Positions 24,174 through 41,263 of a stretch of 45,533 nucleotides of DNA are shown in pieces. The stretch comes from Fibrobacterota bacterium (GTDB lineage: Bacteria > Fibrobacterota > Chitinivibrionia > Chitinivibrionales > FEN-1185): the NCBI GenBank assembly GCA_003165595.1, contig PLWQ01000016.1, positions 690 through 46,222 on the forward strand, in the 5' to 3' direction. The position numbers and the translations under genes were made by a program. Below the pieces are notes generated by a model that saw only the letters and a list, made by a program, of their open reading frames with translations, made no database searches and was not told where the DNA came from. Positions within the stretch are counted from its first letter, which is position 1, and the number at the start of each line of letters is the position of its first letter.

Positions 24174-24710
24174 ATGATGAACAAGGGTTACTTTACGAGA
24201 CTTCTTCTGGCCGCGGCTGCGGCGATTTCCTTTGTCAACGTTCCCGCGCGTGCGCAGGAGCTCTCAATCAACCTTCGGGCCATTGGCCATATTGCTTCGC
24301 AAGGCCGCGTTCAGGACAAGGAATTCAACCCGAAGCTGACCGTCGTGGACCAACTTATTAAAGCCGGGCCGCAGGCCATTCCTTTTCTCGTGTCCAAACT
24401 GGAGGACACCAGCGTCATCAAAGCCAAAGTGCTGGATGGCTGGCCCCGGGTGCGCGTCGGCGACATCGCGTGGTTCATTCTGTACGACTTCTTCACAACC
24501 AGGAGTCAGGTATCCACGCTCCCGGAACCCGGATTGTTCGCGATTCTGGGCGCGGAAAACCTTAACCAGCCGGGATGGAAATCGTGGTCCGCCGTCGTTC
24601 AAAAGACCGGCAGGGCCGGCATCCGCAAGGGAGTCGAGGCGATTCTTGAGCCCTACAAGGGAAAATTCGCGTGGGACGACAAGGAGCGGTGTTTCATGAT
24701 CGGCGAGTAA
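24174..24710 (+). CDS. Exported hypothetical protein
   Basis: The 178-residue product has a signal peptide (FTRLLLAAAAAISFVNVPARA) and no lipobox. The mature part contains DQLIKAGPQAIPFLVSKLED, which resembles a HEAT-like helix pair, and a tryptophan-rich middle (WPRVRVGDIAWFILYDFFTT). Its C-terminus is polar. The ATG is doubled (ATGATG) after AAGGACAACC. A perfect bidirectional terminator follows. No family is recognised; periplasmic location is inferred. Confidence 0.75.
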   Translation: MMNKGYFTRLLLAAAAAISFVNVPARAQELSINLRAIGHIASQGRVQDKEFNPKLTVVDQLIKAGPQAIPFLVSKLEDTSVIKAKVLDGWPRVRVGDIAWFILYDFFTTRSQVSTLPEPGLFAILGAENLNQPGWKSWSAVVQKTGRAGIRKGVEAILEPYKGKFAWDDKERCFMIGE

Positions 24711-24761
24711 AGAACCGCGGGTGAACGCGGCCCCCCGCGCCCCTCGTCGCGGCGTACACGG

Positions 24762-24807
24762 CCACAACGAAAAAGGCCCCGAAGAAACGGGGCCTTTTTC
24801 GTTGTGG
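24762..24807. terminator. Strong bidirectional intrinsic terminator
   Basis: A perfect 20-bp stem (24762-24781 with 24788-24807) around AAGAAA contains GGCCCCG/CGGGGCC flanked by AAAAA and TTTTT. It can end transcription from both the 24174 gene and xylF. Confidence 0.93.
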
Positions 24808-24810
24808 CTC

Positions 24811-24867
24811 TTGCCAATCCAGCCGCTGTTTATCACTGGATGCCCGTTTTCACGGGCATGACACCAG
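24811..24867 (+). repeat. REP-like element
   Basis: CTTGCCAATCCAG, then CACTGGATGCCCGTTTTCAC with the perfect hairpin TGCCCGT/ACGGGCA (24841-24858). Much of it recurs at 28601-28650. Confidence 0.7.
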
Positions 24868-24909
24868 CAGGATATGGCGAGGGAATTTAGGGGACATCAC
24901 ACCAGCTTC

Positions 24910-25935
24910 CTATTTGTATACGTCTTCCTTCTTCAGGTAATCCGACGAGATAAGCGCCGAATCGAGATTGCCCTTGTCGACGGCAATCGGATCGCACAGT
25001 ATGGCCGGAACATCCACCTTGCCGTTGTTCACCTTTCCGTTTATCATGGCCACGGGCTGGCCCATTGCCATGGCAAGCGCTGCCTGAACCGCCACCGCCC
25101 CCAGCTTGCGCGTGTTCTTGTACACGGTCATGGATTGGGTGCCCTTTACAATGCGCTGTGCGGCCGCAAGGTCGGCGTCCTGACCGGTTACGGGAACCTT
25201 GCCGGCAAGGTTCTGGGCTTCAAGCGCGGCAATGCACGCGCCGGCAATGCCGTCGTTGGGCGCGAGCACGGCATCGATCTTGTTTTTGTGCGCGGCAAGC
25301 ACCGCGGTCATCGTCTTCTGCGCTTCGGCAGGGCTCCAGTCCTGTATTGCCTGGTCCAGAACCACGGTGATATCTTTCTTGTCAATGAGCGGCTGCAGCA
25401 CCTTCATGGCGCCCGCGCGGAACTGGGCCGCGTTGTTGTCGTCCGGGGAACCGGAAAGCACCACATACACGCCCTTGGGAGCAAGCTTCGACAACGCCTC
25501 CCCCTGCAACTCACCCACCTTGACATTGTCGAATGAGACGTACAAATCGACGTCGGCGCCCAGGATCATGCGGTCGTAGGCGATCACCTTTGCGCCGGCC
25601 TTGTGCGCCTTCTCCACAATGCTGGCAGCCGCCTTTCCATCCTGCGGAGCCACGATAAGAACCTTTGCGCCCTGGGCGACCAGGCTGTCGCATTGTTTGT
25701 CCTGCCGTTGCGCATCGTTGTCGGCCACCTTGAGCACAAGTTCCAGCCCGATGTCCCGGCACACCTGCTCCATTTTGACCTTGTCGCGCACCCAGCGCTC
25801 CTCGCGCTGCGTAGGAAGCGACACTCCCACTTTGGGAACCGCCTGCTGAACTTTCTTCTCGCCGCTCGAACAGCCGACCATTCCCAGACCAAGAGACGCA
25901 GCGCACAAAAGCGCGCTCACCATTGCTTTCTTCAC
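24910..25935 (-). CDS. xylF: Xylose-type sugar ABC transporter substrate-binding lipoprotein
   Basis: The 341-residue product matches XylF, the periplasmic D-xylose-binding protein. It has a lipoprotein signal with Cys22 (LGLGMVGC), then KVGVSLPTQREERWVRDKVK, VADNDAQRQ, VIAYDRMIL, VYVVLSGSPDDNNA, QAIQDWSPAEAQ, DAVLAPNDGIAGACI and VPVTGQDAD, all characteristic of this family. The start is a GTG at 25935 after GGGGGAGG. The ATPase (xylG) and permease (xylH) genes are not in the window, so it is an orphan here; they may lie elsewhere. Another pentose or a related sugar as ligand cannot be excluded. Confidence 0.92.
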   Translation of the reverse strand: MKKAMVSALLCAASLGLGMVGCSSGEKKVQQAVPKVGVSLPTQREERWVRDKVKMEQVCRDIGLELVLKVADNDAQRQDKQCDSLVAQGAKVLIVAPQDGKAAASIVEKAHKAGAKVIAYDRMILGADVDLYVSFDNVKVGELQGEALSKLAPKGVYVVLSGSPDDNNAAQFRAGAMKVLQPLIDKKDITVVLDQAIQDWSPAEAQKTMTAVLAAHKNKIDAVLAPNDGIAGACIAALEAQNLAGKVPVTGQDADLAAAQRIVKGTQSMTVYKNTRKLGAVAVQAALAMAMGQPVAMINGKVNNGKVDVPAILCDPIAVDKGNLDSALISSDYLKKEDVYK

Positions 25936-26075
25936 GGTAACCTCCCCCGTTTCCAGTCCGATGTACTGCCTGTCCGGTCACGAACTTAGAATATAGAAAA
26001 TATAGCCCCGCCCGCCGCCGCACAAGAGACAAACGAAGAACCACGATGTTTTGTTGACTCATTTACACCCAACCA

Positions 26076-26103
26076 TTGCCGATACCCTATGCCGAATTAT
26101 ACA
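26076..26103 (+). promoter_or_regulatory. Promoter candidate for the PEGA-LamG operon
   Basis: TTGCCG (26076-26081) and TATACA (26098-26103) are separated by 16 bp, 47 bp before the ATG at 26151. Confidence 0.45.
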
Positions 26104-26150
26104 ATAATGGTTGATCTGGCCAGCTCTCCTACCATAGTGCCGGAGGATCG

Positions 26151-27164
26151 ATGACCCGCACCACGCCGCTTTGGGCTGTTGCATTCGCCGTTGTCCTGAA
26201 CGCGGGCACCGGTATGTGCCAGAAGACGCGCATTGCCATGTGCGAGCTCACCGGCCAGGGCGTCGATCAGCCGGCGTCGGCCTTGGTCTCCGAACGGTTG
26301 GGCGCATGGCTCGCCGAGATGCCGGCGTTCGAGGTGATTGCACCCTCGCGGGTATACGTTGCGCTCAAGGAGCACGGCGCAACGTCGTGGTGCAAGGACG
26401 ACGACACCGTGTGCCTTTCCAACCTGGGAAAAACACTCGGCGCCGACGTCGTGATCGCCGGAATTATTGCAAAATCGGAATCGATCTATACCATTCTGCT
26501 CCGCGTGGTCGACGTCGCCTCCGCAACGGTGCTCACCACCGGCTATCAGGACGTCGACGCTCCCCTAGAAAAAATCCAGTCCGAATGGACGGCCAAGGCC
26601 GCCAAGCAGCTCCAGGCCGCCATCAACACGAGAATGTCGAATTTCGGAATTGTCAAGATCCGGTCGGTTCCCGCTGGCGCACGGGTGCACGTGAACGGTA
26701 AAGACGCGGGGAAAACCGACTGCTCGCTGGACCGGCTGCTCCCGGGAAAATACGGCCTCGACATCGCGCTGCCGACCTACGTTACGGTGCGGGAAAGCGT
26801 CACGGTTGAACCGAAGAAGATTCAAGAGGTTTCCGTGAAGCTCGCGCATACAAAGGCGTTTACAGATTCAACGCGCGGCCATGCGATAAGAAAGGCCGTT
26901 GTCCGATGCGCACTGGGCTGCGCGACACTTGCATGCGCGGGGACCGGTTTCTATTTCAACTCGGCGGCGGCTTCGGCCGTCAACGACGAGAGAGGCGCCA
27001 AGTCGGCATACCAGAACGCGGGTCCCGGCAGCGACTTCAACTCATTGTACCAGAAATATCAGGATGCGGGAAAGAAGACCGATAACGCCGTCCTGACGAG
27101 GAACATCCTCTACGGGCTTGGCAGCATCTTGGCTGTTGGATTTGCGGTCTCGTTTTTCTTCTAG
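26151..27164 (+). CDS. Exported PEGA-domain protein with CsgG/TolB-like N-terminal domain
   Basis: The 337-residue product has a signal peptide (LWAVAFAVVLNAGTGMC). Residues about 25-160 follow the pattern of CsgG/FlgO-type domains (IAMCELTGQGVDQPASALVS, LGADVVIAGIIAKSES, ILLRVVDVASATVL). Residues 164-230 are a PEGA domain (GIVKIRSVPAGARVHVNGKD, LLPGKYGLDIALPTY), a beta-sandwich of surface proteins. Two C-terminal hydrophobic segments (ALGCATLACAGTGFYFN and YGLGSILAVGFAVSFFF) could span the membrane. The stop is 15 bp before the LamG lipoprotein gene. GGAGG precedes the ATG. Envelope anchoring is likely, exact role unknown. Confidence 0.88.
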   Translation: MTRTTPLWAVAFAVVLNAGTGMCQKTRIAMCELTGQGVDQPASALVSERLGAWLAEMPAFEVIAPSRVYVALKEHGATSWCKDDDTVCLSNLGKTLGADVVIAGIIAKSESIYTILLRVVDVASATVLTTGYQDVDAPLEKIQSEWTAKAAKQLQAAINTRMSNFGIVKIRSVPAGARVHVNGKDAGKTDCSLDRLLPGKYGLDIALPTYVTVRESVTVEPKKIQEVSVKLAHTKAFTDSTRGHAIRKAVVRCALGCATLACAGTGFYFNSAAASAVNDERGAKSAYQNAGPGSDFNSLYQKYQDAGKKTDNAVLTRNILYGLGSILAVGFAVSFFF

Positions 27165-27179
27165 CGCGAGGATGCCCCG

Positions 27180-28511
27180 ATGGATGCACGGCTTAGATTC
27201 CTTTTGCTTGCCGCGATGCCCTTGGTTCTGTCGTGCGTGCAGACCGACCAGAAATTCGACCGCGACAATCCGCTCGATCCGGGCGGCACGAATTATCATC
27301 CGCCAACCGTGAGCGCACGCGCAAGCAGTGCCACAGCTTCACCGGGTGACACGGTTACGATAACCGCGCATGTGCACGACGCAAACGGCACCATTGTGGC
27401 GATAGAATGGGCGCCCGACGGGAAAACGTTCTCCATTGTCGGCCTCGATTCGGTGCTGCGGGTGCCGTGCTTGACACCAGGCCAGTTGCGAGTGCTGGTC
27501 GAAGCGGTGGCTAACGATTCGCTCGTGTCCACTGTTGACACCGTGACAATCCGCGTGATGGGCAACGCTCCCGCGCTTGCGGGCCCGCCAAACGGATCGA
27601 CCCTCACCACGCTTACGCCGGTACTCTTCTGGCAGCCCGGCTACTACGACGCACGGTTTGCCGTGCTGCTGGACACGGTAAACCCGCCGCTTGCGATTGG
27701 AACGGACTCAATGACCGACACCGTTTACAGTGTGCCAAGAGCCCTGATGCGGGGCCACACCTACTTCTGGGAGGTGATCGGCTATTCCGCCGACAATCTC
27801 CAGCAGGCAAGCGATGTCTGGAGTTTCACGACCCCGGGAAACAGCTCGGTCATGCTCGATGACGGACTCGTCGCCACCTTCCCGTTTAGCGGTAATGCGC
27901 TTGACGCCAGCGGAAACAATCTTCGAACTACCGTCCACGGCGCGACATTGACAGCGGACAGATTCGGCGTGGCCAACAGCGCCTACACGTTCAACGGGAC
28001 AACGGACGACATTGAAGTTGCCGACACGGCGGTGATTTCTTTTGCAAACAGCCAGGACTTTTCCATATCCTTGTGGGTCAAGACGACATCAGCAAACGCT
28101 AACATGATGCCGTTGCTCAAATATCAGTTCGGAGTTTCGGCCGGTTTCTTCTTTATCATGAACCACACGGCATCCGGGTACTGCGGCGGCGCAGGCATCG
28201 CCTCGTTTGTCGCAGGCGTCGGGTCTCCCGCCTGTGCGGCATCCCCCATCAACGACGGAGCCTGGCACCATCTTGTCGCGGAATATTCCGGCCAGTCGGA
28301 CACCATAACCCTGTTTCTGGACGGGACGGCTCAGGCAAGGACCGGCAAACCGGCAAGCGACATTTCTGTTGCCGCGCCCCTGCTCATTGGAGGACTGCCG
28401 GGGCATTATCCCTATGCCGGTTCAGTTGACGACGTAAGAATTTACAACCGGGTGCTCGCCTCAGCGGAAATAGACAGCCTGTATCATCAGGGCGGCTGGA
28501 CCGGCAACTAG
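27180..28511 (+). CDS. LamG-domain surface lipoprotein
   Basis: The 443-residue product has a lipoprotein signal ending VLSC (Cys19), followed by TDQKFDRDNPLDPGGTNY; this DNPLDPGG stretch after the lipid cysteine is familiar to me from Fibrobacterota lipoproteins. Residues about 45-125 are an Ig/PKD-like domain (VTITAHVHDANGTIVAIEWA). About 130-215 resemble a fibronectin III-like module (PNGSTLTTLTPVLFWQPG). About 225-440 are a LamG jelly roll (FPFSGNALDASGNN, SISLWVKTTSANANM, WHHLVAEYS, VDDVRIYNRVLAS). Glycan binding at the surface is the likely role. It shares an operon with the PEGA gene. Confidence 0.9.
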   Translation: MDARLRFLLLAAMPLVLSCVQTDQKFDRDNPLDPGGTNYHPPTVSARASSATASPGDTVTITAHVHDANGTIVAIEWAPDGKTFSIVGLDSVLRVPCLTPGQLRVLVEAVANDSLVSTVDTVTIRVMGNAPALAGPPNGSTLTTLTPVLFWQPGYYDARFAVLLDTVNPPLAIGTDSMTDTVYSVPRALMRGHTYFWEVIGYSADNLQQASDVWSFTTPGNSSVMLDDGLVATFPFSGNALDASGNNLRTTVHGATLTADRFGVANSAYTFNGTTDDIEVADTAVISFANSQDFSISLWVKTTSANANMMPLLKYQFGVSAGFFFIMNHTASGYCGGAGIASFVAGVGSPACAASPINDGAWHHLVAEYSGQSDTITLFLDGTAQARTGKPASDISVAAPLLIGGLPGHYPYAGSVDDVRIYNRVLASAEIDSLYHQGGWTGN

Positions 28512-28540
28512 TGTAGTGTGTCCCAATTACCTGTGCATTT

Positions 28541-28650
28541 GTCATTCCCGCGAAAGCGGGACCGCGACTTTGACTGCATGCGCATGACGGGAGCAGAGGC
28601 CTTGCCAATCTATCTTGTAATCGCCACTGGATGCCCGTTTTCACCTGCCC
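28541..28650 (+). repeat. REP-like element, second copy
   Basis: GTCATTCCCGCGAAAGCGGG (28541-28560) with the CCCGC/GCGGG hairpin. Further on, CTTGCCAATCT and CACTGGATGCCCGTTTTCAC (28601-28650) match the element at 24811. The gap to 28745 has no gene. Confidence 0.7.
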
Positions 28651-28745
28651 GACAGCGGAAGAAGATTGTATAGCCAATGAGGAAACACTCCACGAGGCGC
28701 CGCCGGCATTGAGAGATTTGCGCATCCACGTTTTGTTACTCCCCT

Positions 28746-30362
28746 CTACTTCACCACAACAAACCCTGCCGTCTCAGTCCAACTGCCCGCCTCAACCGTC
28801 GCAAAATATCTTCCCTGCGAAAGCCTGTCACCCAAGACGGCTTCTCCGTTTTTCGACCGAACCGAGGCTACGAGTCGGCCCCGGATGTCGAAAATCCGGA
28901 GAACAGCCTCCCGCACCGGAAAAGAAAAGGCTATAAGCGAATTGCCCGGCAGACTCGTCGCCCGCAGCGCAGGTTTGCCGGGGTGCATTCGGTCCGGCAG
29001 CAGCACGGTCCGGTTCGGTCCTTGCGAGCAATTGACAAAAAGGTTGAATGAGCACGTATCCGCCGCGGTGTCTCCGGTGACAAGAACCGCAATTCGCGTC
29101 ACAAATGCCGAATCGGTCCTCGGTGTCCAGAAAATTGTTCCGCCGGCGCTTACTCCGCATTGGGCCGGAAGCGACAGCGGCGAATAGCTATAGGCAAGGC
29201 TGTCACCAGGTTCCGGAATCTCAAAAGTAAACAGGGAATCCTTCTTTGCGTATCTGTCGTCCAGAACACGGAAAACCGTGCCCCCCGGCCCCAGCGCTTC
29301 GGCTGCCACAAAGTCTCCGGTTGCCGTGCGATACATGGCAGTTGCGGCCGGAGTCGGGCCCGATGCCGGCATAATCCACCCGGCGTTTCCTTCGGAATCG
29401 ATTTTTGCGGATGCCGCGCCGCAAAGCATGAATCCGCCGCCCCCTGCCTTGAAAATTGAAAGCGGGCCGGTGATGCCGGCGTACTTCCGCATCCAGAGGG
29501 GCTTTCCGCCGGTTGTCATTTTCAGCGCGAACGCTTCGTTGCCCGCAGTGCCGCCAAAACCCGCTGCAACGAAATCACTGTCGCCCGCAAGCACGATTGC
29601 GCCGGCTTCGAACCCGGCAAGGTCGGGCGTGTACGACCACACGGTATCTCCGTGTGCGCCCAGGCACAGAAGCCAGGGGCGCCGCACCTGGCCAAAATCG
29701 ATATATCCGGCGGCAAGCAAATTGCCATTTGGCAAGAACGAAAGAGCGCTCACGTCCCTGTTTTCGGCGAATACATACTCTTTCGATTGCGTGGTGTCGC
29801 CGCCGGAATCCATCATGAGCACCTTGATGCCGCATCGCTGGCCCGAGTCCGACGCGGGATAGGTGCTTGCCGTAATCACGAAATCGCCGTCGCGGGATAC
29901 GGCGATCGCCGTGGGCCAATGGCGGTACTGCCAGTTGTAAACCTTTGTCCAGAGCAGGTTGCCGGATTGTTCGATCTTGGTGATACACACGTCGTTGCCT
30001 TCGAGGCTCGAAGTATCAATGGTGCCGGCCGCAACCAAGAAACTCCGGTTCCCCGCCGGCGCAATCGCCGTCGCACTGCCCTTCCAATCCAGAGTCCGGG
30101 TCCACAAGAGGGTTCCGTCCGGCGCAACGGAATACAGGTGGGCATGATAAAAAAGGTAGTACCAGTATTCACGGATAACGGTAAGCGAGTCTCCGGCAAC
30201 AATAAAATTGCCGTCGGCGGTCGGCGCAATGGCTTGCGCAATATTGGTCCCAGGGCAGCCAAAGGAGCGCGTCCGAAAAACCTGGGCCGAAGCCAAGGGT
30301 GTATTTGTAAGCACGGCCATTGCGGAAACGGCCATGAGAAAGAGGATGCGCCTGAGGATCAT
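28746..30362 (-). CDS. Large secreted protein with sorting-like C-terminus
   Basis: I chose the ATG at 30362 (MILRRILFLMAVSAMAVL), which gives a signal peptide and 538 residues; the frame extends upstream to 30497 without a better start. The body is a series of repeated beta motifs with DGN/DGD turns (APTADGNFIVAGDSL, VSRDGDFVITAST, LPNGNLLAAGYID), like a propeller that reads out logged values. Near residue 410 an Ig-like module follows (FEIPEPGDSLAYSYSPLSLP). The C-terminus (VLRIFDIRGRLVASV, LSQGRYFATVEAG) resembles the type IX sorting domain. Probably secreted; role unknown. Confidence 0.82.
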   Translation of the reverse strand: MILRRILFLMAVSAMAVLTNTPLASAQVFRTRSFGCPGTNIAQAIAPTADGNFIVAGDSLTVIREYWYYLFYHAHLYSVAPDGTLLWTRTLDWKGSATAIAPAGNRSFLVAAGTIDTSSLEGNDVCITKIEQSGNLLWTKVYNWQYRHWPTAIAVSRDGDFVITASTYPASDSGQRCGIKVLMMDSGGDTTQSKEYVFAENRDVSALSFLPNGNLLAAGYIDFGQVRRPWLLCLGAHGDTVWSYTPDLAGFEAGAIVLAGDSDFVAAGFGGTAGNEAFALKMTTGGKPLWMRKYAGITGPLSIFKAGGGGFMLCGAASAKIDSEGNAGWIMPASGPTPAATAMYRTATGDFVAAEALGPGGTVFRVLDDRYAKKDSLFTFEIPEPGDSLAYSYSPLSLPAQCGVSAGGTIFWTPRTDSAFVTRIAVLVTGDTAADTCSFNLFVNCSQGPNRTVLLPDRMHPGKPALRATSLPGNSLIAFSFPVREAVLRIFDIRGRLVASVRSKNGEAVLGDRLSQGRYFATVEAGSWTETAGFVVVK

Positions 30363-30559
30363 CGCGGAGAGTCCGATGCTTAAAACCTGGGACCGACCAA
30401 GGAAACTCCGCCTTCGCAGAGACACTGCGACGGAATTCCTTCTACTGCAATATGCATTACGGACCAATGCGGAGCAAGAGGCAGGGAGCCACGGCACCTC
30501 GTGTCTCCGTGAGAAAACACCTACGTAATGTGAGGAAAAATGGAATAAGGATAGACCTG

Positions 30560-31585
30560 CTAGAATCCCACGATCATGCTCACGCTGAGGGCCGGGTCCA
30601 TGTCCTGCAGGAGCTGGACCGCGGCATCGATCCCAGCGTTTACCACTCCGATGTCGGTGTTGACGCCAAAGCCGAAGCAGAATCCGGCCCAGTTCGTCTT
30701 TTGATACCCGTTGTTTGATTCTCCCTGAAGCACCTTAAGCTGAGACTCGATATCAGGTTCGCTGAATGAATACCCTGCCCGGAGTGTGAGATACTTCTTG
30801 TAAATGTCAACTTCGGCGCCGAGCTTGTAGGTGAGGAAGCCGTCGGTGGGCTGCATGAGATCGAGGGCGAGCCGAAGATTGGGGATGTTGTCGGGAGAAT
30901 AGGAAACGCCGGCCGACACGGACAGCGGCATGCTGAGATCTTCGGTCTGGTCGGTATAATTGGCGATCATGAACCCCGCGTTGTTGAGCGCCAAACCCGC
31001 TATCACGCGCGAGCCGAGCCACCGGTACTGGAGTCCGGCCTGCACCACGACGGCATCCGCGGAATAGTGTTCCGCCGTGCCGCCCGAATTGCCGATGTAG
31101 TCGTGAATCTCACGAAGAGAGCCGCCGATCGACAGCGATTCCCACACCACTTTTGCCCACGTGAGGCTGCCGGCCACCGAATACGAATGCCACGAAATGC
31201 CGGTTGACAGCGGCCTTCCGTCCGGACCTTCGTCGACCTCGTTCAGAGAGCCGTAGGAAATATTGACAAGATTGAGCGCGAATGTTCCCCAGTTGGAGTA
31301 CGGCAGAGCAACGGCAATCGGACTGCCCCAGACATCGTCGATAACGGACCGGTATCCGCAGACCACTTGACGTTTTGATATATAGCCGGCCGCCGCGGGA
31401 TTGGTTGGCACGCCGTACAGGTCGTTGGGCATGGCAACGGACACGCCGCCCGTGGCGATGGTGCGCGCGTCGTAATCGAGATAAAGAAAGGGGAACGCAC
31501 TCGTACCCGCCTGACCCGCCTGCCCGAACGTCGACGCGACACAGCACACAGCGGCTGATGTTGCCAACACGATTTTTCGCATCAT
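30560..31585 (-). CDS. PorV/PorQ-family outer-membrane protein
   Basis: The 341-residue product starts MMRKIVLATSAAVCCVASTF (a second in-frame ATG is at 31582). The N-terminus of the mature part is the family hallmark: GTSAFPFLYLDYDARTIATG then GVSVAMPNDLYGVPTNPAAA. PorV is the FadL-like barrel that shuttles type IX cargo to the surface attachment complex, and PorQ is a relative. Alternating strands continue to a C-terminal phenylalanine (SMIVGF). Its start overlaps the stop of the LolB-like gene as ATGA. With sorting-like domains on three other proteins here, a role in type IX secretion is likely. Confidence 0.92.
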   Translation of the reverse strand: MMRKIVLATSAAVCCVASTFGQAGQAGTSAFPFLYLDYDARTIATGGVSVAMPNDLYGVPTNPAAAGYISKRQVVCGYRSVIDDVWGSPIAVALPYSNWGTFALNLVNISYGSLNEVDEGPDGRPLSTGISWHSYSVAGSLTWAKVVWESLSIGGSLREIHDYIGNSGGTAEHYSADAVVVQAGLQYRWLGSRVIAGLALNNAGFMIANYTDQTEDLSMPLSVSAGVSYSPDNIPNLRLALDLMQPTDGFLTYKLGAEVDIYKKYLTLRAGYSFSEPDIESQLKVLQGESNNGYQKTNWAGFCFGFGVNTDIGVVNAGIDAAVQLLQDMDPALSVSMIVGF

Positions 31586-32301
31586 GGCGATCGGACCTTC
31601 CGCGAGTTCACCGAGAGTGAATGATAGGTGACGTAAAAATAATTATTGTCTGAAGGAACAAACCGTATTTCTTTGGCGCGCCCGTCACGGAAATCCCGGA
31701 AAATAAGGGTGGAACGTTCCTTTTCGCCAATGCCATATGATATTTCGGACAGGCGATCCGTTTTATTATCAAGTGCCACAGAAATATCCGCGACGCGGTC
31801 CGAACACCGGCGAGACCGCCACACAAAACGGGCCGTTTTCTTGTCGGTAAACATCGTGTCCGGGCGGCCGCGCAACTCGTCTAGGCACGGGTACCGCAGG
31901 GTAAGCGCACCCAGCAGTTCCTGCCAGGAGAGCGGGAATTCGAAAGAGCCCTGCCCCACGCTCACTCGCTGCGACGGATGCTGGGTGTATTGCGAATCGC
32001 CCGCCGATACCAGCCACCGCGCGGCTGTTATCGAACGGACGGCGGCGATGGTGATGCCCAGGGGACCGTAAAACTGCGCTGCGAACGAAGAATCACCATT
32101 CCACTTGATATCAAAACTCGCGGAGAATTCCTCGCCGCCGCGGGCAAAGACTATACTGCCGCTGCCGAGAAGGGACCGCACGGTATCTGCCGAAAGTACC
32201 GGAGCAAGCGAGGAAACGGCGGAGTCAAAGGTGAGCGGCGGCCGCACCGCGCAGGAAAAAAGCATCGAGCAACAGATGAGGGCACTATAGAATAGGCGCA
32301 T
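31582..32301 (-). CDS. LolB/DUF4292-like lipoprotein
   Basis: The ATG at 32301 gives 239 residues with a lipoprotein signal (LFYSALICCSMLFSC, Cys17). The mature part forms strands typical of the LolB/LppX half-barrel: GSIVFARGGEEFSASFDIKW, AAQFYGPLGITIAAVRS, then FPLSWQELLGALTLRYP. In Bacteroidota the related DUF4292 proteins accompany envelope-export genes; LolB itself inserts lipoproteins in the outer membrane. The assignment rests on pattern. It lies 66 bp after the TPR lipoprotein gene and overlaps the PorV-like start. Confidence 0.75.
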   Translation of the reverse strand: MRLFYSALICCSMLFSCAVRPPLTFDSAVSSLAPVLSADTVRSLLGSGSIVFARGGEEFSASFDIKWNGDSSFAAQFYGPLGITIAAVRSITAARWLVSAGDSQYTQHPSQRVSVGQGSFEFPLSWQELLGALTLRYPCLDELRGRPDTMFTDKKTARFVWRSRRCSDRVADISVALDNKTDRLSEISYGIGEKERSTLIFRDFRDGRAKEIRFVPSDNNYFYVTYHSLSVNSRKVRSP

Positions 32302-32367
32302 GATTACTCTGTGAAACGGCGGCCGGAGCGCATATGGCAACGGAAAAGCCCGTGGAGGGCCGGCAGA

Positions 32368-34152
32368 CTATTTGCCGCGCTTGACTCCCCCACCCGGAAG
32401 CTTCGCTTCCAATTCCCGTATCATCTTTTTTGCATGGTCGCTCTCGTCGGATTTCGGGTCGAGGTCGAGGCTCTTTTTGTAAGCCTCAAGCGCTTCACGA
32501 TCTTTGCCGGTGCCGTGAAGAATATCGGCATAGTGACTCATGACCACGCCGTCGTCGTTGATTAGTTTGAGCGCCTTACCAATGTAGACCAGGGCGCTGT
32601 CGAGACTGCCGAGCTTGTAAAACACCCATGCATAGGAATCGAGGAATGCGCCGTTTGCGGTGTCGCGGCTCACGGCGAACGCCAGCAGCGATCGTGCGCT
32701 GTCGAGCTTCATGCCTTTGTCGGCCCACATGTAGCCGAGGTAGTTCGCCGCCGCGGCATCGTCGGGCTTGAGGGCGAGAACGCGCCTGAACGCCTGCGCC
32801 GACGAGGCGATGTCACCCGTGCGTTCCAGCGCGCTGCCGAGTTCGTACCAGGCAAAGGTGTCGGCGGAATCGATCCCGATTGCTTTACGAAAAAACGGAA
32901 GCGCCGCCGGGAATTCTTTTCGTACGTTGTGCACGTAGCCCAGCGTTCGCCAGGCGGCCCCGCTCGCAGGCATGCTCTTTGTAAATCGGTTCGCGTCGGC
33001 GAGCGCCTCATCCATTTCCTTCTGCTTGATGTCGGTGTAGGCCACCTTGAGCCATGCGTCGCCGTAGTCGTTGCGGATCGCAAGCGTCTTCTCAAACTCC
33101 ACCCGGGCCGGATCGAGGCTGTCCTGGGCCTCGTATGCCAGCCCCAGGTAAAAATGCAGCTCATAGTCCTCGATGTCGGAGGCCAGCAGGGTGCGCAGCA
33201 GCGACTTCGCCTTTTCGTACTTGTTCCCGTAATAATAGAGCAGCGCCAGGGTCTTCCCGAACAGCTCGCCGGTGCTATCGGAGGTATACAGCTTCTCGTA
33301 GTACGGAATGGCCGCGGCATAATCGCTTTTGTGAATGTACGCCTGGGCGATGTTTCTCACCGCATCGAGATCGGCCGAATCGATCATCACCGCCATTTTG
33401 AAGAAGTCTAGCGCGAGAGCCGAGTCTCCTTTGGCAAGTTTTACTTCGCCGAGAGCGTTAAACAGCCGCGGATTCTGGCCGTTCTTCCCCGCCGCCACCA
33501 ACAGGCTCTCTGCGGCGCCCCAGTTGCGCTGCCGTCCGTAGAGTGCGCTCACCTTGAGCACCATTTCGATGGACGAGGAATCTTTCTTGAGATACTCTCT
33601 GTAATTCGCCAGCGCCTTGGGAACATTGCCGAGCGACTCGTACAACAATCCCAGCATGTACCGTATTTCCTTGTGTTTGTCGGGAATCAATTCCAGAACA
33701 TCGATGGCGCGTGAATACTGCCCCATCCTCATGTAAATACCGGCGCACAGCGACTTGTCCGCATCGGAGAGATCGACGTCCTTCTTCCTGCCGCGAATGC
33801 ATTGGATGGCCGCATCGAACTTCGACATGAGAACATACCGCTGGACCAGATCCTCCCGCAGCGTCCGCGATGCCGGGTCCAGTTCGTAGGCCATTTCGTA
33901 GTACTGCAACGCCAACTGGGCCAGGCCGTGGTGCTCGCATTCACGGGCCTGCATGAAATATTCCTGCGCCCGGCGATGCGCAGACCACTCCCGGGAATGA
34001 CGTTCCACCGGCTGTATAAGGGGGAATTTCTGCACGGTGCACCCGGCGCACAAAGCAAGCACGCACAACAGGACCGGGTATGCGGATCCCCGGCTTCGGT
34101 GAGGTTCAAGACGAGTATGAAGAGAGCGCGTGCTCCCAAAAGTGTGACGCAT
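32368..34152 (-). CDS. TPR-repeat lipoprotein
   Basis: The ATG at 34152 gives 594 residues. An N-terminal basic stretch precedes a lipoprotein signal (PVLLCVLALCAGC, Cys about 38). Fourteen or so TPR units follow from about residue 60 (ALQYYEMAYELDPASRTL, AIDVLELIPDKHKEIRYMLG, DVYTLGSALE-type helices), ending in a polar tail rich in lysine (AKLPGGGVKRGK). TPR arrays hold protein complexes together. It starts 4 bp after the PASTA gene's stop, so the two are co-translated. A periplasmic scaffold for the secretion operon is inferred. Confidence 0.9.
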   Translation of the reverse strand: MRHTFGSTRSLHTRLEPHRSRGSAYPVLLCVLALCAGCTVQKFPLIQPVERHSREWSAHRRAQEYFMQARECEHHGLAQLALQYYEMAYELDPASRTLREDLVQRYVLMSKFDAAIQCIRGRKKDVDLSDADKSLCAGIYMRMGQYSRAIDVLELIPDKHKEIRYMLGLLYESLGNVPKALANYREYLKKDSSSIEMVLKVSALYGRQRNWGAAESLLVAAGKNGQNPRLFNALGEVKLAKGDSALALDFFKMAVMIDSADLDAVRNIAQAYIHKSDYAAAIPYYEKLYTSDSTGELFGKTLALLYYYGNKYEKAKSLLRTLLASDIEDYELHFYLGLAYEAQDSLDPARVEFEKTLAIRNDYGDAWLKVAYTDIKQKEMDEALADANRFTKSMPASGAAWRTLGYVHNVRKEFPAALPFFRKAIGIDSADTFAWYELGSALERTGDIASSAQAFRRVLALKPDDAAAANYLGYMWADKGMKLDSARSLLAFAVSRDTANGAFLDSYAWVFYKLGSLDSALVYIGKALKLINDDGVVMSHYADILHGTGKDREALEAYKKSLDLDPKSDESDHAKKMIRELEAKLPGGGVKRGK

Positions 34153-34156
34153 TGGA

Positions 34157-34927
34157 TTAATTGATAACCGAAACAACAATGTTGACTGCACTCTCCAGCG
34201 GCACACTGCTGCCGGGGGGCACCGATTGAGATACCACGGTCCCGGGTGAAAGGGTTGCGTTGGTCTTGTATTCCAGTTTCCCGAGCTTGAGACCGGCATC
34301 CTCGATCTTCTTTTTCGCATCGAGAAGACCTTCTCCAATGAGGTTCGGCATGTCGGCATGCGTCGGCTTTGCGCCGTCGGAAATCACGAGGTCCACAGGC
34401 ATTTCTTTGGAAATCGAAGACCCCTGGGCAGGAGACATCTGGCTCACCATGTCCTTTTCGAGAGAATCCGAAAAATCCCTTTTGCGTTTTCCCACGGTGA
34501 ATCCCAGCTTGCGCAGTTCGATCACGGCCTTGCGCTCGGTAAGTTTGCGCACATCGGGCACGACACCTGTCTCCGAGCCCTTGCTCACCACGACAATCAC
34601 CATGCGCCCCTTCTTCACCTGTTCGTCGGCAGCCGGCTGCTGACTTATGATGCACTCATGAGGAATTTTCTCGTCGTATTGCCTCGCCCTTATCTGCAGA
34701 CGCAGGCCCGTATCGAAAAGCCGCTGACGGGCTTTCTCCCACGGAAGATTTACAATCGCGGGAACGATAACCACCTGGCGGTCGGTGTGCACAATCCCGG
34801 GCATCACCATTTTGTCGACGACAAAAATCCCCACCGCCCCGCCCGCGAGGCACAGGATGAGCGCCGAGGGCAGGATTACTTTCCACAAGAGTTCGGCCGG
34901 GATGTTAATCGAATAGCTTTTCTTCAT
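34157..34927 (-). CDS. Inner-membrane protein with three PASTA domains
   Basis: The 256-residue product has one membrane segment (residues about 18-41, VILPSALILCLAGGAVGIFV) and then three PASTA domains (about 45-116, 118-186 and 188-254), each with a valine/proline strand start (VVIVPAIVNLPWEKARQRLF, VVPDVRKLTERKAVIELRKL, MPNLIGEGLLDAKKKIED). PASTA domains bind peptidoglycan fragments or beta-lactams in kinases and penicillin-binding proteins. No kinase or transpeptidase domain is attached here, so it may be a wall sensor or anchor. Its start overlaps the Crp/Fnr gene by 23 bp. Confidence 0.93.
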   Translation of the reverse strand: MKKSYSINIPAELLWKVILPSALILCLAGGAVGIFVVDKMVMPGIVHTDRQVVIVPAIVNLPWEKARQRLFDTGLRLQIRARQYDEKIPHECIISQQPAADEQVKKGRMVIVVVSKGSETGVVPDVRKLTERKAVIELRKLGFTVGKRKRDFSDSLEKDMVSQMSPAQGSSISKEMPVDLVISDGAKPTHADMPNLIGEGLLDAKKKIEDAGLKLGKLEYKTNATLSPGTVVSQSVPPGSSVPLESAVNIVVSVIN

Positions 34928-35588
34928 TCAAAATCACCAGTTTCTTTCCGTCTGCGACAAGGTAGTGTTTCTTTTGCAATTGCGACATTATTCGCGATAC
35001 GGTTTCCCGGCTCGTTCCCGCCATGTCGGCAATAACCTGATGCGTGGGCCGGTTCGGGATCACGATCATGTCCCTCACGCGCTGGCCCTGGTCCTTGGCG
35101 AGCTGGAGAAGAACATCCGCAACTCGTCCGTACACGCTCATGAGCGACAACGTATTAATATGCTTGTTAGCGCGCCTGATGCGCTTGGACATTTCCACAA
35201 GAATCTGGATCGTTATTTTTGGATACCGCTGGAGAATGTCGAGGAACATCTTGCGATACAGCATAAGCAGCACGCATTGATCGGACGCAATCACCGATGC
35301 GCTTCGCGGTTCACCGTCGAGAATGGCCATCTCTCCAAAGAAGTCGCCGGGTTTGAGCGTGGCGAGGATTGCGCTCTTGCCTTCCGAGGTAATCACGGCC
35401 ACATGGACGTGGCCCGAAACGATGACAAAAAACGTTTGACCTTCATCGTCGTCTTCGTGGACGATAACCTCGTTGGGCGAGAAGGTTCTCGGCACCATTA
35501 TCCTGCAGATTGCCGAACGATCCATACTCGACAAACAGGAAAACAGCGGCACACCCGCGGCTACCGATTCGATTTCCTGCGCATTCAT
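34905..35588 (-). CDS. Crp/Fnr-family transcription regulator
   Basis: The 227-residue product has an N-terminal cyclic-nucleotide-binding domain with the phosphate-binding cassette GDFFGEMAILDGEPRSAS (Glu86, Arg95, Ser96 in the positions used for cAMP), a long dimerisation helix and a C-terminal winged helix (THQVIADMAGTSRETVSRIM). It should sense a cyclic nucleotide or related signal and bind DNA. Its start overlaps the big TPR gene's stop by 4 bp, and it heads PASTA, TPR and PorV-type genes, so it may control its own operon. No CRP half-site pair was seen upstream. Confidence 0.95.
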   Translation of the reverse strand: MNAQEIESVAAGVPLFSCLSSMDRSAICRIMVPRTFSPNEVIVHEDDDEGQTFFVIVSGHVHVAVITSEGKSAILATLKPGDFFGEMAILDGEPRSASVIASDQCVLLMLYRKMFLDILQRYPKITIQILVEMSKRIRRANKHINTLSLMSVYGRVADVLLQLAKDQGQRVRDMIVIPNRPTHQVIADMAGTSRETVSRIMSQLQKKHYLVADGKKLVILNEEKLFD

Positions 35589-38500
35589 TGCTGGTTCTCC
35601 GTTATGGTGGAAAGCTGCTCAACGTGTGAGACGGCCTCGCGCCCGAGTTCTCCGGTTTCTCCATCGGTTCGCACGATTTTCCTGTAGAGGGCAAGCGCCT
35701 TTTTGTACTCTCCCAGGCGCTCGTATACCCGCGCCGCCTCGCATTCGGAGGTGATACCCCACCGGCCGATGCCCGCGTAGAACGACGGTACCTTGAGGTA
35801 CTCAGTTGCCGCTTTTTGATAATCGCCCTGCCGTGCATAGCAGGTGGCGGTCCAGTACATTATTTCCGGCTTCTCCTCGAGACTCGGACTGGCGGACGCC
35901 TTGGCGAATTGCTTGAGCGCTTCGTCGAAATGCGAGGCCTGTAACAGGCAGAAACCCGTCTTGAGATGCGCCGACGACGGGTTGATCTCCTCCGGGAAAC
36001 TGTCGAGTATGGTTTCGTACATCCGCGCCGCTTCCAGCCAGCGGGATAGTTTCTGAAAATCGACGGCCGCGTTGTAGGCGGCCCTAAAACGCGTCATCCT
36101 GTCCGTTGCCGTGTGAGACAACGCAGCGGTAAAGAACTTTGAGGCCTGTTCGAAATCGTTCTGGTCGTGATAAATCATCCCGAGTTTGAAATTGGCAAGC
36201 CCAGCGAAGCTGCTTCGCGGGTACGACTCGACAAACCCGTTAAAGCGATCGAGCGCCACATCCGTTTTTCCCGCATAAAACCACGTCAGCGCCGTCTGGT
36301 AGGCCGCCGCGTCGCGCCATGCGGAATTCGGATATCTTTCGAGAATATAATTAAATCGCGAACGGGCCTTGTCATAATCCTTGTTCACCAGAAACGCGAG
36401 TCCTTCGTGATACAGGATCTGCGTGTAGGCATCGCCCGACGTGCCGAAGCGGTTCCTGAAGAGTGACGACGCACGGTCGGCGTCCGCATGCCGGCCATCC
36501 ATCAGGAGGGCAGAGGCAAGCCCCGCATATGCTTCGACGCTGTCGGGCCCGGTCCTGGCAACTGCGGCGGCACGCTGGTACGCGACGACCGCCTCCGGAT
36601 AGATCCGGCTGCCGAAAAAGAGGCCGCCCATCATGAGAAGGGCCGTGTCCTTTCGCTGATACCCGTCCACGGCCACCACCTTGTTGCAATAGTCAATTGC
36701 CTCGCGTATCAAGCCTTTGCTTTGCGAAATGCCCGCAAGATCGAGATACACATCCCCGGCAAAATCGGCCGGCAGTTTTTCCCTGGCGAGATCCCCCAGC
36801 ACCGCTGCGGCCTCGTCGATCCGGCCAAGTTTCGCCAGACACCGGGCGGAGCCGAGCCGGGCGGATGCACGGCGGTTGCCGGCGGCGCTCCGCGCGCACA
36901 GCCTGAAATTGTTCAACGCTTCGCCGTACTTCTCCATGGTGAAGTATCCGACTGCAACTTCGTAACGCGCAGCCTCGGCAAAGGGGCTAAACGGGTACAG
37001 CATGAGCACCTTCCTGAATTTGTCGAGCGATTCGGGGACGCGGCGACGGCATTTCTCCACGAGCCCGTCGAGATAATATCCCTCGGCCGCCGATGACGAA
37101 TCGGCAAATCTCCTGAAGAACTCCCGTACAAACGCTTCCGCGGAATCGGGCTTGCCCATGGCGCAGTAGTTGCGCGCGCTTCCCAGGAGCGATTGAGCGG
37201 CGCAGGGGCCGGCCGGAAATGCCTTTGCCGCGTTGGCGTAGGCAAGCGCGGCCTGTTGCCGGAAGGACGAGTCGCCGCTGTCGGCGCGTGCTTCGCAGTA
37301 GTGTGCGATAATGAGATACACTTCGGGGCGATGGATGCTTGAAGGATGTGTTGATAAAAAGCGTTCGCCTCCGGCAAAGCCCCGGTTCGACAGCACCAGA
37401 AGCCTGTAGGACGCGTCGTCGGCAACGCGCGGAACCGGGCATCTGGTGACGGAGGAATAGAGCGCAATCGCACGCGCCCTGGCCGAATCTGCCGCCGCCG
37501 CATCGAATTCGATGCGCGCCTTTTCGTAGAGTCTCTCCCAGGCGCCCGCCTTTGCCAGTGCAAGCGAGAACTTTACGGAATCGGATTCTCCCTGTGCGGC
37601 CCGCTGCGCCCGATCGAGCAAGTCTACGGCCCTCCCGTACTCATGCAGATCGTTTGAGTAGATCTCAGCAACACCCATGAGCCGGCGCACGGAGCCGGTG
37701 CTGTCGGGCCTTTGGACCGCCATCTCCGACAGCGCACCCACGGCATGGTCGAGGTCGCGCAGGCGAAATGCGGCAAGATAATGCGCCCTGTTCTTCGCCT
37801 TTTCAACGAGCTCCGCGGAAGCGTCCGATTCGATCACGCTGGTGTACCGCTGCAGCGCCGCCGCGGCGTTGCCGAGCGATTCCTCGCATTGACCCATGGC
37901 AAACAGCACGTCGTTGTACAACGGGCTTTCCGGATACATCCTGAGAAAATTCTCGTATTCCTGGAGCGCCGCGCCGTACCTGCGGTACTTATCACGAAAG
38001 ATGGTGGCAATCTGGACCGAGACCCGGTCGCCGTCGGTGACGCCGGGCAACTGCGCGTATCTTCGGTACGCCGCGATGGCGCTCGGGAAGAGCCCCATAC
38101 CGCAGTACAGGTCTGCCGCCTCAGCCAGCGCTTTCCTGCCATACGACGACACGGTGTCTCTGGCGGAAATCAACATCAGGGTTTCAACGGCATCGGACGA
38201 CGCGCCGCGCCGCTCTTGACATTGTGCGATACGGTACCGCGCCAGCGACGCCATGGAATCCTGGGTCGTTGCGGCGGCCGCCCGACGGTACAGTTTTTCG
38301 GCAAGATCGAGCGACTGCGCGGCGGCGGCGTTGTCGGCCCATTCCAGGAGAAAATCCTGCGACAGACTCTGCCCCTTCTGCTGGTAATACTCGGAAAGCT
38401 TCCGGAACACGACAAGGCTGGTTGCATGGTCTTTCTGCGCGTCGAGAAACGAAATGTAGTTGAGGCATGCCTCTTCTTTTTCCGGAAACGCCTGTTCGGC

Positions 38501-39259
38501 CCCGAGCATGGCCGAAAACAGGCGCGATGCGCGGTCGGGTTTCTGGGTCATGGATGCAAGCAGTGCCTGGTAATACAGCAGGCGCGGCAGGAACTGTTTG
38601 TCGTTTGCAAAGCGTTTCTCCGCAGCGGCAATCACTTTCCCCGCATCGCCGAAATTCTTCTGCTCAAGGTGAAGCTTGACAAGCAAACACGAAGCGTCTT
38701 TGGCCGGTTCCTGTCTGGGAAAGCGATCGAAGAAAGTGGTAAACAGGTCGGTGGCCCTCTCGGTGTTGCCGTCTTCCCGGGCGCAGAGCGCGGCCTCGTA
38801 GAGCGCCTTTGACGCCAGAGAGCTGGATGGGAACTTGAACCACAGGTGGAAGAAACGTTCCGAAGCCTCTCTGTTGTTCCCGAGCGCCTTTTGAGCGGCG
38901 GCGGCGTAATAAATGGCGTCAGGCACGCGGCCATCCCACGAGAACTGCCGGACAAAATCGTCCAACACATCGCAAGACTTGGCAAATTCATTCATCCGGA
39001 AATGGCATATTCCGGCTTTGTAGAAAGCCGCGATTTCGTTTTCGGCCGGCTGCCGGTACCCCGGAGTCTTCGGGACATGCAACGAGTTCTTCTTGTACCC
39101 GGCAAGGTATTTCTGGTATTGCTGGTATTGCTGCAAGGCGGGACCATACAGAGAATCGGCGAAATACCTCTCAGCCGCGACAAACGACGCGGAACCGTCG
39201 GCGTCGGCAAAGCAGGAGAACGCAGCGCAGGCGATGAAAAAAAATGACGCGATTTTCAT
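35585..39259 (-). CDS. Very large periplasmic TPR-repeat protein
   Basis: The ATG at 39259 gives 1224 residues with a signal peptide (ASFFFIACAAFSCFADAD). The rest is a long superhelix of TPR units of about 34-38 residues, with repeated motifs such as AAFYKAGICHFRMNEFAKS, ALYEAALCAREDGN and AAYQTALTWFYAGKTDVAL. Related proteins (CpoB/YbgF-like and BamD-like) coordinate envelope assembly; the length here is unusual. The last codons overlap the Crp gene. It is the first gene of a six-gene minus-strand operon. The long minus- and plus-strand frames inside it are shadows. Confidence 0.93.
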   Translation of the reverse strand: MKIASFFFIACAAFSCFADADGSASFVAAERYFADSLYGPALQQYQQYQKYLAGYKKNSLHVPKTPGYRQPAENEIAAFYKAGICHFRMNEFAKSCDVLDDFVRQFSWDGRVPDAIYYAAAAQKALGNNREASERFFHLWFKFPSSSLASKALYEAALCAREDGNTERATDLFTTFFDRFPRQEPAKDASCLLVKLHLEQKNFGDAGKVIAAAEKRFANDKQFLPRLLYYQALLASMTQKPDRASRLFSAMLGAEQAFPEKEEACLNYISFLDAQKDHATSLVVFRKLSEYYQQKGQSLSQDFLLEWADNAAAAQSLDLAEKLYRRAAAATTQDSMASLARYRIAQCQERRGASSDAVETLMLISARDTVSSYGRKALAEAADLYCGMGLFPSAIAAYRRYAQLPGVTDGDRVSVQIATIFRDKYRRYGAALQEYENFLRMYPESPLYNDVLFAMGQCEESLGNAAAALQRYTSVIESDASAELVEKAKNRAHYLAAFRLRDLDHAVGALSEMAVQRPDSTGSVRRLMGVAEIYSNDLHEYGRAVDLLDRAQRAAQGESDSVKFSLALAKAGAWERLYEKARIEFDAAAADSARARAIALYSSVTRCPVPRVADDASYRLLVLSNRGFAGGERFLSTHPSSIHRPEVYLIIAHYCEARADSGDSSFRQQAALAYANAAKAFPAGPCAAQSLLGSARNYCAMGKPDSAEAFVREFFRRFADSSSAAEGYYLDGLVEKCRRRVPESLDKFRKVLMLYPFSPFAEAARYEVAVGYFTMEKYGEALNNFRLCARSAAGNRRASARLGSARCLAKLGRIDEAAAVLGDLAREKLPADFAGDVYLDLAGISQSKGLIREAIDYCNKVVAVDGYQRKDTALLMMGGLFFGSRIYPEAVVAYQRAAAVARTGPDSVEAYAGLASALLMDGRHADADRASSLFRNRFGTSGDAYTQILYHEGLAFLVNKDYDKARSRFNYILERYPNSAWRDAAAYQTALTWFYAGKTDVALDRFNGFVESYPRSSFAGLANFKLGMIYHDQNDFEQASKFFTAALSHTATDRMTRFRAAYNAAVDFQKLSRWLEAARMYETILDSFPEEINPSSAHLKTGFCLLQASHFDEALKQFAKASASPSLEEKPEIMYWTATCYARQGDYQKAATEYLKVPSFYAGIGRWGITSECEAARVYERLGEYKKALALYRKIVRTDGETGELGREAVSHVEQLSTITENQQ

Positions 39260-39560: not shown

Positions 39561-40325
39561 TTACCACATTTTGGGCTGGTGAACCGGAAGGTCGTTTGTG
39601 TCAAGATCGGTGAGGCCGCCGCCGTTGCGGTTGCCCATTGCCTTCCAAATAAAATAGCCCGCGATTCCACCCGCAACCACGACACCGCCGGTGACACCGG
39701 CAATAAGCCCGGGATTGGATTTTTCTTTCTGATCGGTGAGCGCCTTTATCTTTGCGGGATCGGTTGACCATTTGAAATTGAAGGAGATCACGTTGTACTC
39801 GTCGGTCACGTTGATTTTGGGGATTGCGCTCAGGTCGAACGTGACCGTAACCATGTCGTGCCATTCCGGATTGAGACCGCGCACTTCCTTGTTCACGTCT
39901 ATTTTGCCCTGTTCGAGTACGAACCCGTCAATGGGCGGCACCTTTTGCGAAGCCACGGGAGAATTCCCTTTTTGCGTATCGTTGAATTCGAACACCAGCT
40001 TGTTGGTCTTTCTCTTTACTTCATAGAAATAGCTTGACGGCTTGTCGCGGAAAATAAAATAGCAGGTGACGACGTTCTCTTTTTCTTCCTTTGAGGGCTC
40101 GCTTGAAATCTGAACTCCCTCGAGCACGGCGTTCTGAACCGGGTTAACCGGAGCAGCCGGCGGGGGCGTTCCGACGGGCGGAGGAGCCGTGGGCGCGGCA
40201 GGTTCCTCGGAGGGCGGCGTAAGTTCATTTGACCCGCCTCCCTGGGCGAACACAGGCGCTGCCATGAAGAAGGGAAACCACAAGATAAGAAAGCGCTTAA
40301 CCAATTCGTAGCCGAAACCGCGCAT
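39561..40325 (-). CDS. AMIN-like exported membrane protein, copy 2
   Basis: The ATG at 40325 has an excellent GAGGAGGCGGT ribosome site and gives 254 residues: signal peptide (FLILWFPFFMAAPVFAQ), proline-rich linker, an AMIN-like beta domain (about 75-205: VLEGVQISSEPSKEE, VVTCYFIFRDKPSSYFYEVK, NKLVFEFND, HDMVTVTFDLSAIPKI, SFNFKWSTDP), one membrane segment (IAGVTGGVVVAGGIAGYFIW) and a polar tail ending LDTNDLPVHQPKMW. AMIN domains target proteins to peptidoglycan or polysaccharide at the cell envelope. It is a close paralogue of the preceding gene, sharing the tail motif. Likely last gene of the acpS cluster. Confidence 0.85.
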   Translation of the reverse strand: MRGFGYELVKRFLILWFPFFMAAPVFAQGGGSNELTPPSEEPAAPTAPPPVGTPPPAAPVNPVQNAVLEGVQISSEPSKEEKENVVTCYFIFRDKPSSYFYEVKRKTNKLVFEFNDTQKGNSPVASQKVPPIDGFVLEQGKIDVNKEVRGLNPEWHDMVTVTFDLSAIPKINVTDEYNVISFNFKWSTDPAKIKALTDQKEKSNPGLIAGVTGGVVVAGGIAGYFIWKAMGNRNGGGLTDLDTNDLPVHQPKMW

Positions 40326-40525
40326 ACCGCCTCCTCGCATTATATAAAAAATACCCTCCGTGCCGAAAAGTGTCAATATCTTTCGGACCGGCGAAAGGGC
40401 CGCACGCATAACCGGGACCGGATGCTTTGCAAAAAGTTGCGCCGCCGATGGAGGTGGACTGTGCCAGGATCGGCGGCGGGCAAAAAGACAGTGCCGCAAT
40501 TCCGGAGGCAGAAAACACCAACCAT

Positions 40526-41263
40526 TTACCGCCACATTTTCTGCGAATGTGAGGGAAGGTCGGAAGTATCGAGCGCTCCGGCGACCGGGGGCGGAGGCGG
40601 AGGCTTGAGCAGATAATAGAGGGCCGCGCCTAAGACAACAGCGCCGCCGCCCGCCAATCCGCCTACCAGTCCCCAATTCGTCTGCCCTGCATTGTCAACG
40701 AGCGTTTTGAGCTTGGCCGGATCTGTCGACCATTTGAAGCTGAAGGAAATAACGTTGTATTCGTCGGACACGTGAATCTTGGGAATGGCGCTGAGGTTGA
40801 AGGAAACGCTCACCTGATCGTGCAATTCCGGATTAAGCCCCTTTACTTCCCTGTTGACGTCAACCTTGTGCTGATCGAGTTCGAAGCCCTCCAGGGGAGA
40901 CACCTTCTGGGACGGTATCGGCGAGGTCCCCTTTTGCGCATCATTGAATTCGAAAACCAGCTTGTTCGCTTTTCGCTTTACTTCATAGAAATAGCTTGAC
41001 GGCTTGTCACGGAAAATAAAGTAGCAGGTAACGGTGACGTCGCTGCCGCTCTCCTTGGATGGCTCGCTCGAAACCTGGATGCCTTCCAGAACGGCGTCAG
41101 GGACGGCACTCGCTGCGGCTGTCGCCGGCACGACTGCCTCGGGGGCGAAAGAAGGTTCTTTTAATGCCGAATCCGCTTCCTGGCCGAATACGGAAGCCGC
41201 CATGAAGAACGGAAACCACACGATGAGAATGCGAGCTGCGAATCCACCAACTGCTCGATACAT
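40526..41263 (-). CDS. AMIN-like exported membrane protein, copy 1
   Basis: The 245-residue product has the same layout as its neighbour: signal peptide (ILIVWFPFFMAASVFGQ), linker, AMIN-like domain (VLEGIQVSSEPSKES, TVTCYFIFRDKPSSYFYEVK, HDQVSVSFNLSAIPKI), one membrane segment (GLVGGLAGGGAVVLGAALYYL) and a tail ending LDTSDLPSHSQKMWR. The core is largely identical between copies, while linker and membrane segment differ, so tandem duplication followed by divergence is clear. Family naming rests on pattern. It lies 92 bp after acpS. Confidence 0.85.
   Translation of the reverse strand: MYRAVGGFAARILIVWFPFFMAASVFGQEADSALKEPSFAPEAVVPATAAASAVPDAVLEGIQVSSEPSKESGSDVTVTCYFIFRDKPSSYFYEVKRKANKLVFEFNDAQKGTSPIPSQKVSPLEGFELDQHKVDVNREVKGLNPELHDQVSVSFNLSAIPKIHVSDEYNVISFSFKWSTDPAKLKTLVDNAGQTNWGLVGGLAGGGAVVLGAALYYLLKPPPPPPVAGALDTSDLPSHSQKMWR

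Follow-up and report, generated by a model that had tools for sequence, protein, structure and literature searches.

An ancient Fibrobacterota operon with a probable role in envelope growth

Six co-directed genes in a 45,533-nucleotide stretch of a Fibrobacterota genome (hereafter the window; the genome is 5.39 Mb and 98% complete) bring together a giant TPR protein, a Crp/Fnr-family regulator, a PASTA protein, two outer-membrane lipoproteins and an outer-membrane barrel. Does this mixture form a unit that evolution has kept, and what might such a unit do? A first-pass annotation of the DNA had proposed that the block matches no known operon and could connect a wall signal to surface export. 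Here, we compared the locus across the phylum and related its products to characterized systems.

Layout and conservation of the locus

The ORF calls confirmed six co-directed genes at 39259-30560 on the minus strand (Table 1). The tight coupling claimed by the first-pass annotation was borne out in full by their coordinates: the giant and Crp genes overlap by 4 bp, the Crp and PASTA genes by 23 bp and the LolB-like and PorV-family genes by 4 bp, while a 4-bp gap separates the PASTA gene from the TPR lipoprotein gene. The TPR lipoprotein and LolB-like genes are 66 bp apart. The mechanical ORF of the TPR lipoprotein is longer than the protein listed because its start lies inside the PASTA gene.

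Table 1 Features of the operon and its surroundings in the window
Feature	Coordinates	Strand	Details
Two tandem secreted AMIN-like paralogues	39561-41263	-	371 + 245 aa; AMIN-like by eye
Intrinsic-terminator-like hairpin	39513-39492	-	8 T; parts the six-gene block from the upstream (AMIN-like) gene
TPR giant	39259-35585	-	1224 aa from ATG 39259; predicted secreted periplasmic TPR protein (ORF)
Crp/Fnr-family regulator	35588-34905	-	227 aa; PF00027 and PF13545 matches
crp/pasta gene overlap	34905-34927	-	23 nt
PASTA protein	34927-34157	-	256 aa; PF03793 x3
TPR lipoprotein, LbcA-like	34152-32368	-	594 aa; lipobox-like LCAGC
LolB-like outer-membrane lipoprotein (LolB/DUF4292 superfamily)	32301-31582	-	239 aa; lipobox LFSC
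PorV/PorQ-family outer-membrane barrel	31585-30560	-	341 aa; NF033709 above cut-off
fmt + rsmB	20634-22891	-	7.7 kb downstream of the PorV-family gene

The case for coupling had been staked on the gene order being conserved in sister genomes, and the order held. We took the locus from 59 of the 61 phylum genomes and labelled its genes with profiles built from members of the window's own order; two loci stop at a contig edge, leaving 57 genomes assessable for the PASTA-TPR lipoprotein pair. These two genes were adjacent in all 57, and the TPR lipoprotein and LolB-like genes in 54. Adjacency of Crp and PASTA was found in 39 genomes of 10 families; in 18 of these genomes, from 6 families, the two genes overlapped by exactly 23 nt. 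The LolB-like and PorV-family genes were neighbors in 35 genomes (8 of 10 families). Ten genomes had the giant beside Crp; they came from 6 families, one of which, f9, lies outside the window's order. Seven genomes, drawn from six families, had the complete six-gene order. Since divergent genomes share this order even though their operon proteins are only about 20-50% identical, the arrangement is more than chance.

The order was not fixed, however. The locus lacked a PorV-family barrel in 19 genomes, all from f8 (16 genomes; presumably Fibrobacteraceae) or f11, and Crp did not adjoin PASTA in many f3 genomes. In a genome of the same genus as the window (G001), the operon is broken between the TPR lipoprotein and LolB-like genes into two loci (L035 and L147). 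Tight linkage of all parts is thus not essential. A gene with a weak integrase-core match lies close to the break (L035:7289-8455). The core is Crp-PASTA-TPR lipoprotein-LolB-like, and the barrel and the giant, the latter placed beside Crp in only 6 families, depend on lineage; a fixed six-gene unit, as first described, is not what the phylum holds. Conservation of gene order across the phylum indicates an old linkage that selection has maintained, albeit in modular form.

The surroundings of the operon vary. Throughout the order, the AMIN-like pair, for which a Pfam search gave no match, keeps its place between AcpS and the operon; it is also tandem in family f9 (L159), and in the window forms an upstream neighbor in a separate unit. 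Downstream, fmt-rsmB begins 6 bp after the PorV-family gene in two f7 genomes, overlaps its predicted end in one f1 genome (G002) and lies about 0.6-1.9 kb away in many others. In the window, approximately 7.7 kb of non-conserved genes (23000-30500) intervene, a likely insertion given the shorter distances in relatives. One of these genes encodes a 583-residue protein whose C-terminal sorting tail for the type IX secretion system (T9SS) scored near threshold, at 20.0 bits vs 23. In f8 (L157-L158, L163-L165), purA precedes the operon (by Pfam on L158). The genes after it, where tested, encode a ~1130-residue FG-GAP protein, which has a weak T9SS tail, and an FGE-sulfatase-domain protein with a GldK/PorK-like fold.

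The TPR and LolB-like lipoproteins

We compared the TPR lipoprotein with known TPR proteins. Its profile aligned to Pseudomonas aeruginosa PA4667/LbcA over a single 441-residue stretch (E 2e-28). For the C-terminal 131 residues, LbcA/PA4667 was also the best natural match in the PDB (E 1e-13), followed by OGT (E 8e-7). The AF2 model is a TPR superhelix (pLDDT 90.5), among whose Foldseek matches LbcA ranked 18 (TM 0.43), so that LbcA does not stand out by structure. The protein shares with LbcA a lipoprotein nature, an array of some 11 TPRs or more and full-length similarity, and its gene lies directly upstream of the LolB-like gene in the same 54 of 57 genomes. In P. aeruginosa, lbcA shares an operon with downstream lolB (lbcA-lolB-ipk) (PMC6050968), and LbcA-CtpA degrades wall hydrolases (PMC6050968, PMC8764530). 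Thus, in both organisms the gene for a large TPR outer-membrane lipoprotein stands immediately upstream of a lolB or LolB-like gene; ipk follows lolB in P. aeruginosa, unlike in the Fibrobacterota operon. The P. aeruginosa operon is not known to include a gene for a PASTA protein, Crp, a TPR giant or PorV. CTP proteases were present in 61 of 61 Fibrobacterota genomes, although their presence is not specific, as they occur in nearly all bacteria. By analogy, the TPR lipoprotein may play a role similar to that of LbcA in a distant phylum.

The identity of the LolB-like protein was resolved only by fold comparison and by Pfam matches of its relatives. The window protein matched no Pfam model, including LolB (PF03550), and had no direct NCBIfam match either, and PDB sequence searches with the family profile and with a short relative returned nothing useful. 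However, its AF2 model (pLDDT 89.6) adopts the open 11-stranded half-barrel of the LolA/LolB fold, and the top four Foldseek matches in the PDB were LolB structures, including E. coli LolB 1iwm (best E 2e-7), with P. gingivalis LolB 9tpm also among the matches. TM scores were only 0.46-0.65, with LolA-superfamily proteins close behind. Among 23 relatives, 10 matched Pfam LolB (best E 2.7e-5) and 6 matched DUF4292; individual PF03550 scores included 17.8 and 19.3 vs a gathering score of 23.7. As relatives match both models, the family bridges LolB and DUF4292, and as the window protein itself misses the Pfam LolB cut-off, we call it LolB-like rather than LolB.

Conserved residues agree with this assignment. 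All 24 aligned members have the lipoprotein cysteine, and a P-L/M/F-G loop column is hydrophobic in every one of them, at what we take to be the position of L68 in the protruding hydrophobic loop of E. coli LolB. Profile comparison (probability 97.3, E 2e-11) showed that in families f8-f11 the gene at the same position of the locus is homologous to the LolB-like gene. The Fibrobacterota protein shares a predicted fold, a lipobox and a putative hydrophobic loop residue with the LolB/DUF4292 proteins of Bacteroidota (LolB1 and P. gingivalis LolB), to which weak but repeated matches to the Pfam LolB and DUF4292 models also link it. It differs in gene context from known LolB and is only 12-14% identical to E. 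coli LolB. LolA is encoded elsewhere in the window's genome. In Bacteroidota, LolB was recognized only in 2025-26 (PMC11885536, PMC13103446).

The PASTA protein, the regulator, the giant and the barrel

The PASTA protein combines a single TM helix at its N terminus with three PASTA repeats. Its 256 residues contain no domains other than PASTA, and hence no kinase domain of the Stk1/PknB type. Of the 61 genomes, 59 gave a match to it, usually to one copy. In Zixibacteria and related genomes, reached via the TPR search, the same short, membrane-anchored, kinase-less three-PASTA protein is encoded within (fmt-)rsmB-PASTA-rpe, with fmt-rsmB nearby and rpe read from its N-terminal motif. By contrast, the Fibrobacterota PASTA gene sits between Crp and the TPR-LolB pair.

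The Crp protein carries a CRP-like cNMP pocket (GEMxxLDGEPRSA) and recognition helix (TSRETVSR), and scored 112.8 bits against the NCBIfam CRP model, below the cut-off of 266. The R-S of the phosphate-binding cassette and the R-E..R residues of the recognition helix are kept in the window protein and in most of 39 orthologues; in two f7 sequences, T replaces the cassette R. A scan of the window for CRP sites gave 12 matches vs 14 expected, none of them upstream of the operon. In Fibrobacter succinogenes grown on cellulose, Lol components and wall-turnover proteins are lowered together (PMC6851124). Such a response fits control linked to carbon supply, but does not identify this Crp as the factor behind it.

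The giant contains TPRs of the CpoB/YbgF and BamD types, with matches to TPR_6, TPR_16 and YbgF, and its f9 orthologue is collinear over the full length (26% over 1248 columns). We rejected its identification as SprE/PorW: it scored 90 vs 250 bits against NF052312, and the best match in the genome lies on another contig (C3).

The barrel belongs with T9SS PorV and PorQ at the level of the family, scoring 93.9 bits against NF033709 (cut-off 90) and matching the solved PorV structure 6h3i by profile (E 1e-16). However, it fell far below the NCBIfam equivalog cut-offs for true PorV (30 vs 250 bits) and true PorQ (97 vs 220 bits), both of which were rejected, and the genome has about ten PorV-family copies, this barrel among them. 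The name PorV given in the first-pass annotation must accordingly be widened to PorV/PorQ family, and the proposed surface export, which rested on that name, is not supported as stated. A second TPR-PorV neighborhood, lacking LolB, was seen in Zixibacteria (L088, L090, L096), where the TPR lipoprotein gene is followed by genes for a Big_5 lipoprotein, a secreted protein of ~1900 residues and a PorV-family barrel. The gene after the TPR protein there was considered as LolB and rejected, as it encodes a Big_5 Ig-like lipoprotein.

A probable role in envelope growth

What, then, might the operon do? The claim that it spans the envelope layers was upheld: an inner-membrane PASTA protein, a predicted periplasmic giant, two outer-membrane lipoproteins and a barrel are encoded together, and the arrangement is kept across the phylum. 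Its novelty was borne out in part. Literature searches on PASTA with Fibrobacteres and on PASTA, TPR and LolB together turned up no description of the whole operon, but its TPR-LolB pair corresponds to lbcA-lolB and its PASTA gene recurs in the rsmB-PASTA-rpe neighborhood of Zixibacteria and related genomes. The LolB fold, the likeness to LbcA and the occurrence of rsmB-PASTA-rpe elsewhere argue that known modules were stitched together in a way specific to Fibrobacterota. The modules are best read as PASTA(-fmt-rsmB), lbcA-lolB, a PorV-family barrel, Crp and the TPR giant.

A wall-binding protein, an LbcA-like lipoprotein and a LolB-like lipoprotein in one conserved operon suggest that it probably co-ordinates wall growth with outer-membrane building. 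We therefore favor, with some confidence, an ancient envelope-growth operon in which wall-growth control and outer-membrane lipoprotein insertion would be co-expressed under a cNMP-type Crp. The LolB-like protein would take lipoproteins from LolA and seat them in the outer membrane, with the LbcA-like lipoprotein as a likely client. At the outer membrane, the latter could provide a scaffold for wall hydrolases and/or a carboxy-terminal processing protease, as LbcA does for CtpA, while the PASTA protein would bind wall fragments at the inner membrane and the giant would bridge the periplasm. Crp, the first gene of the core and overlapping PASTA, may tie the set to carbon or energy status via a cyclic nucleotide. 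Taken together, these activities would co-ordinate growth of the sacculus with insertion of outer-membrane lipoproteins and barrels.

Several observations argue for this envelope-growth role: the retention of the PASTA-TPR and TPR-LolB-like pairs in 54-57 genomes; the LolB fold and profile, with similarity to LbcA beyond that of generic TPRs and the operon logic of lbcA-lolB; the availability of partners in LolA and the CTP proteases; the CRP-type cNMP and DNA-contact residues of Crp; and the joint lowering of Lol and wall-turnover proteins in F. succinogenes. Counting against it, the LbcA assignment concerns a TPR protein for which structure comparison does not favor LbcA, no clear CRP-like site was found upstream, CTP proteases are near-universal, and the linkage is loosened in many f3 genomes and in G001. 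In a bolder version, the PASTA protein, giant, LbcA-like and LolB-like lipoproteins and barrel would form one trans-envelope complex, with its own cyclic-nucleotide regulator, that detects growth of the sacculus and positions lipoproteins and barrels in the outer membrane to match. We consider this version unlikely; no description of such coupling was found in the literature searched.

A link of the operon to type IX secretion is possible. The SprA translocon was present in 61 of 61 genomes, and LolA/LolB of Bacteroidota are needed for the T9SS and gliding, as shown in F. johnsoniae (PMC11885536). With a barrel of the PorV/PorQ family, a giant touched by the PorW/SprE model and a protein with a near-threshold sorting tail just downstream, the barrel, a SprE/PorW-like giant and the LolB-like protein could form an accessory operon for assembly of the SprA translocon or for substrate handling. 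We think this unlikely, however, as the barrel misses both equivalog cut-offs and has about ten paralogues, the better SprE/PorW candidate lies on another contig, and f8 and f11 have SprA but no barrel at the locus. It is similarly improbable that the locus is a housekeeping string, in which lbcA-lolB, PASTA and fmt-rsmB share no pathway and are conserved neighborhoods that expression level, translational coupling or essentiality, not a joint function, keeps in place. The rsmB-PASTA-rpe order elsewhere, the fmt-rsmB genes trailing the operon in f7 and G002, purA before Crp in the tested f8 genome and the coming and going of parts among lineages would all fit such a string. But the four-gene core, which consists entirely of envelope genes and one regulator, persists across families at 20-45% protein identity, whereas purA and fmt do not persist with it.

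The envelope-growth role bears on two open questions: how wall and outer-membrane growth stay in step, and by what route lipoproteins reach the outer membrane outside Proteobacteria. The locus names a LolB-like candidate for Fibrobacterota, tied in a conserved operon to a regulator, a wall-binding protein and an LbcA-like protein, and provides a short list of genes with which envelope co-ordination could be tested.
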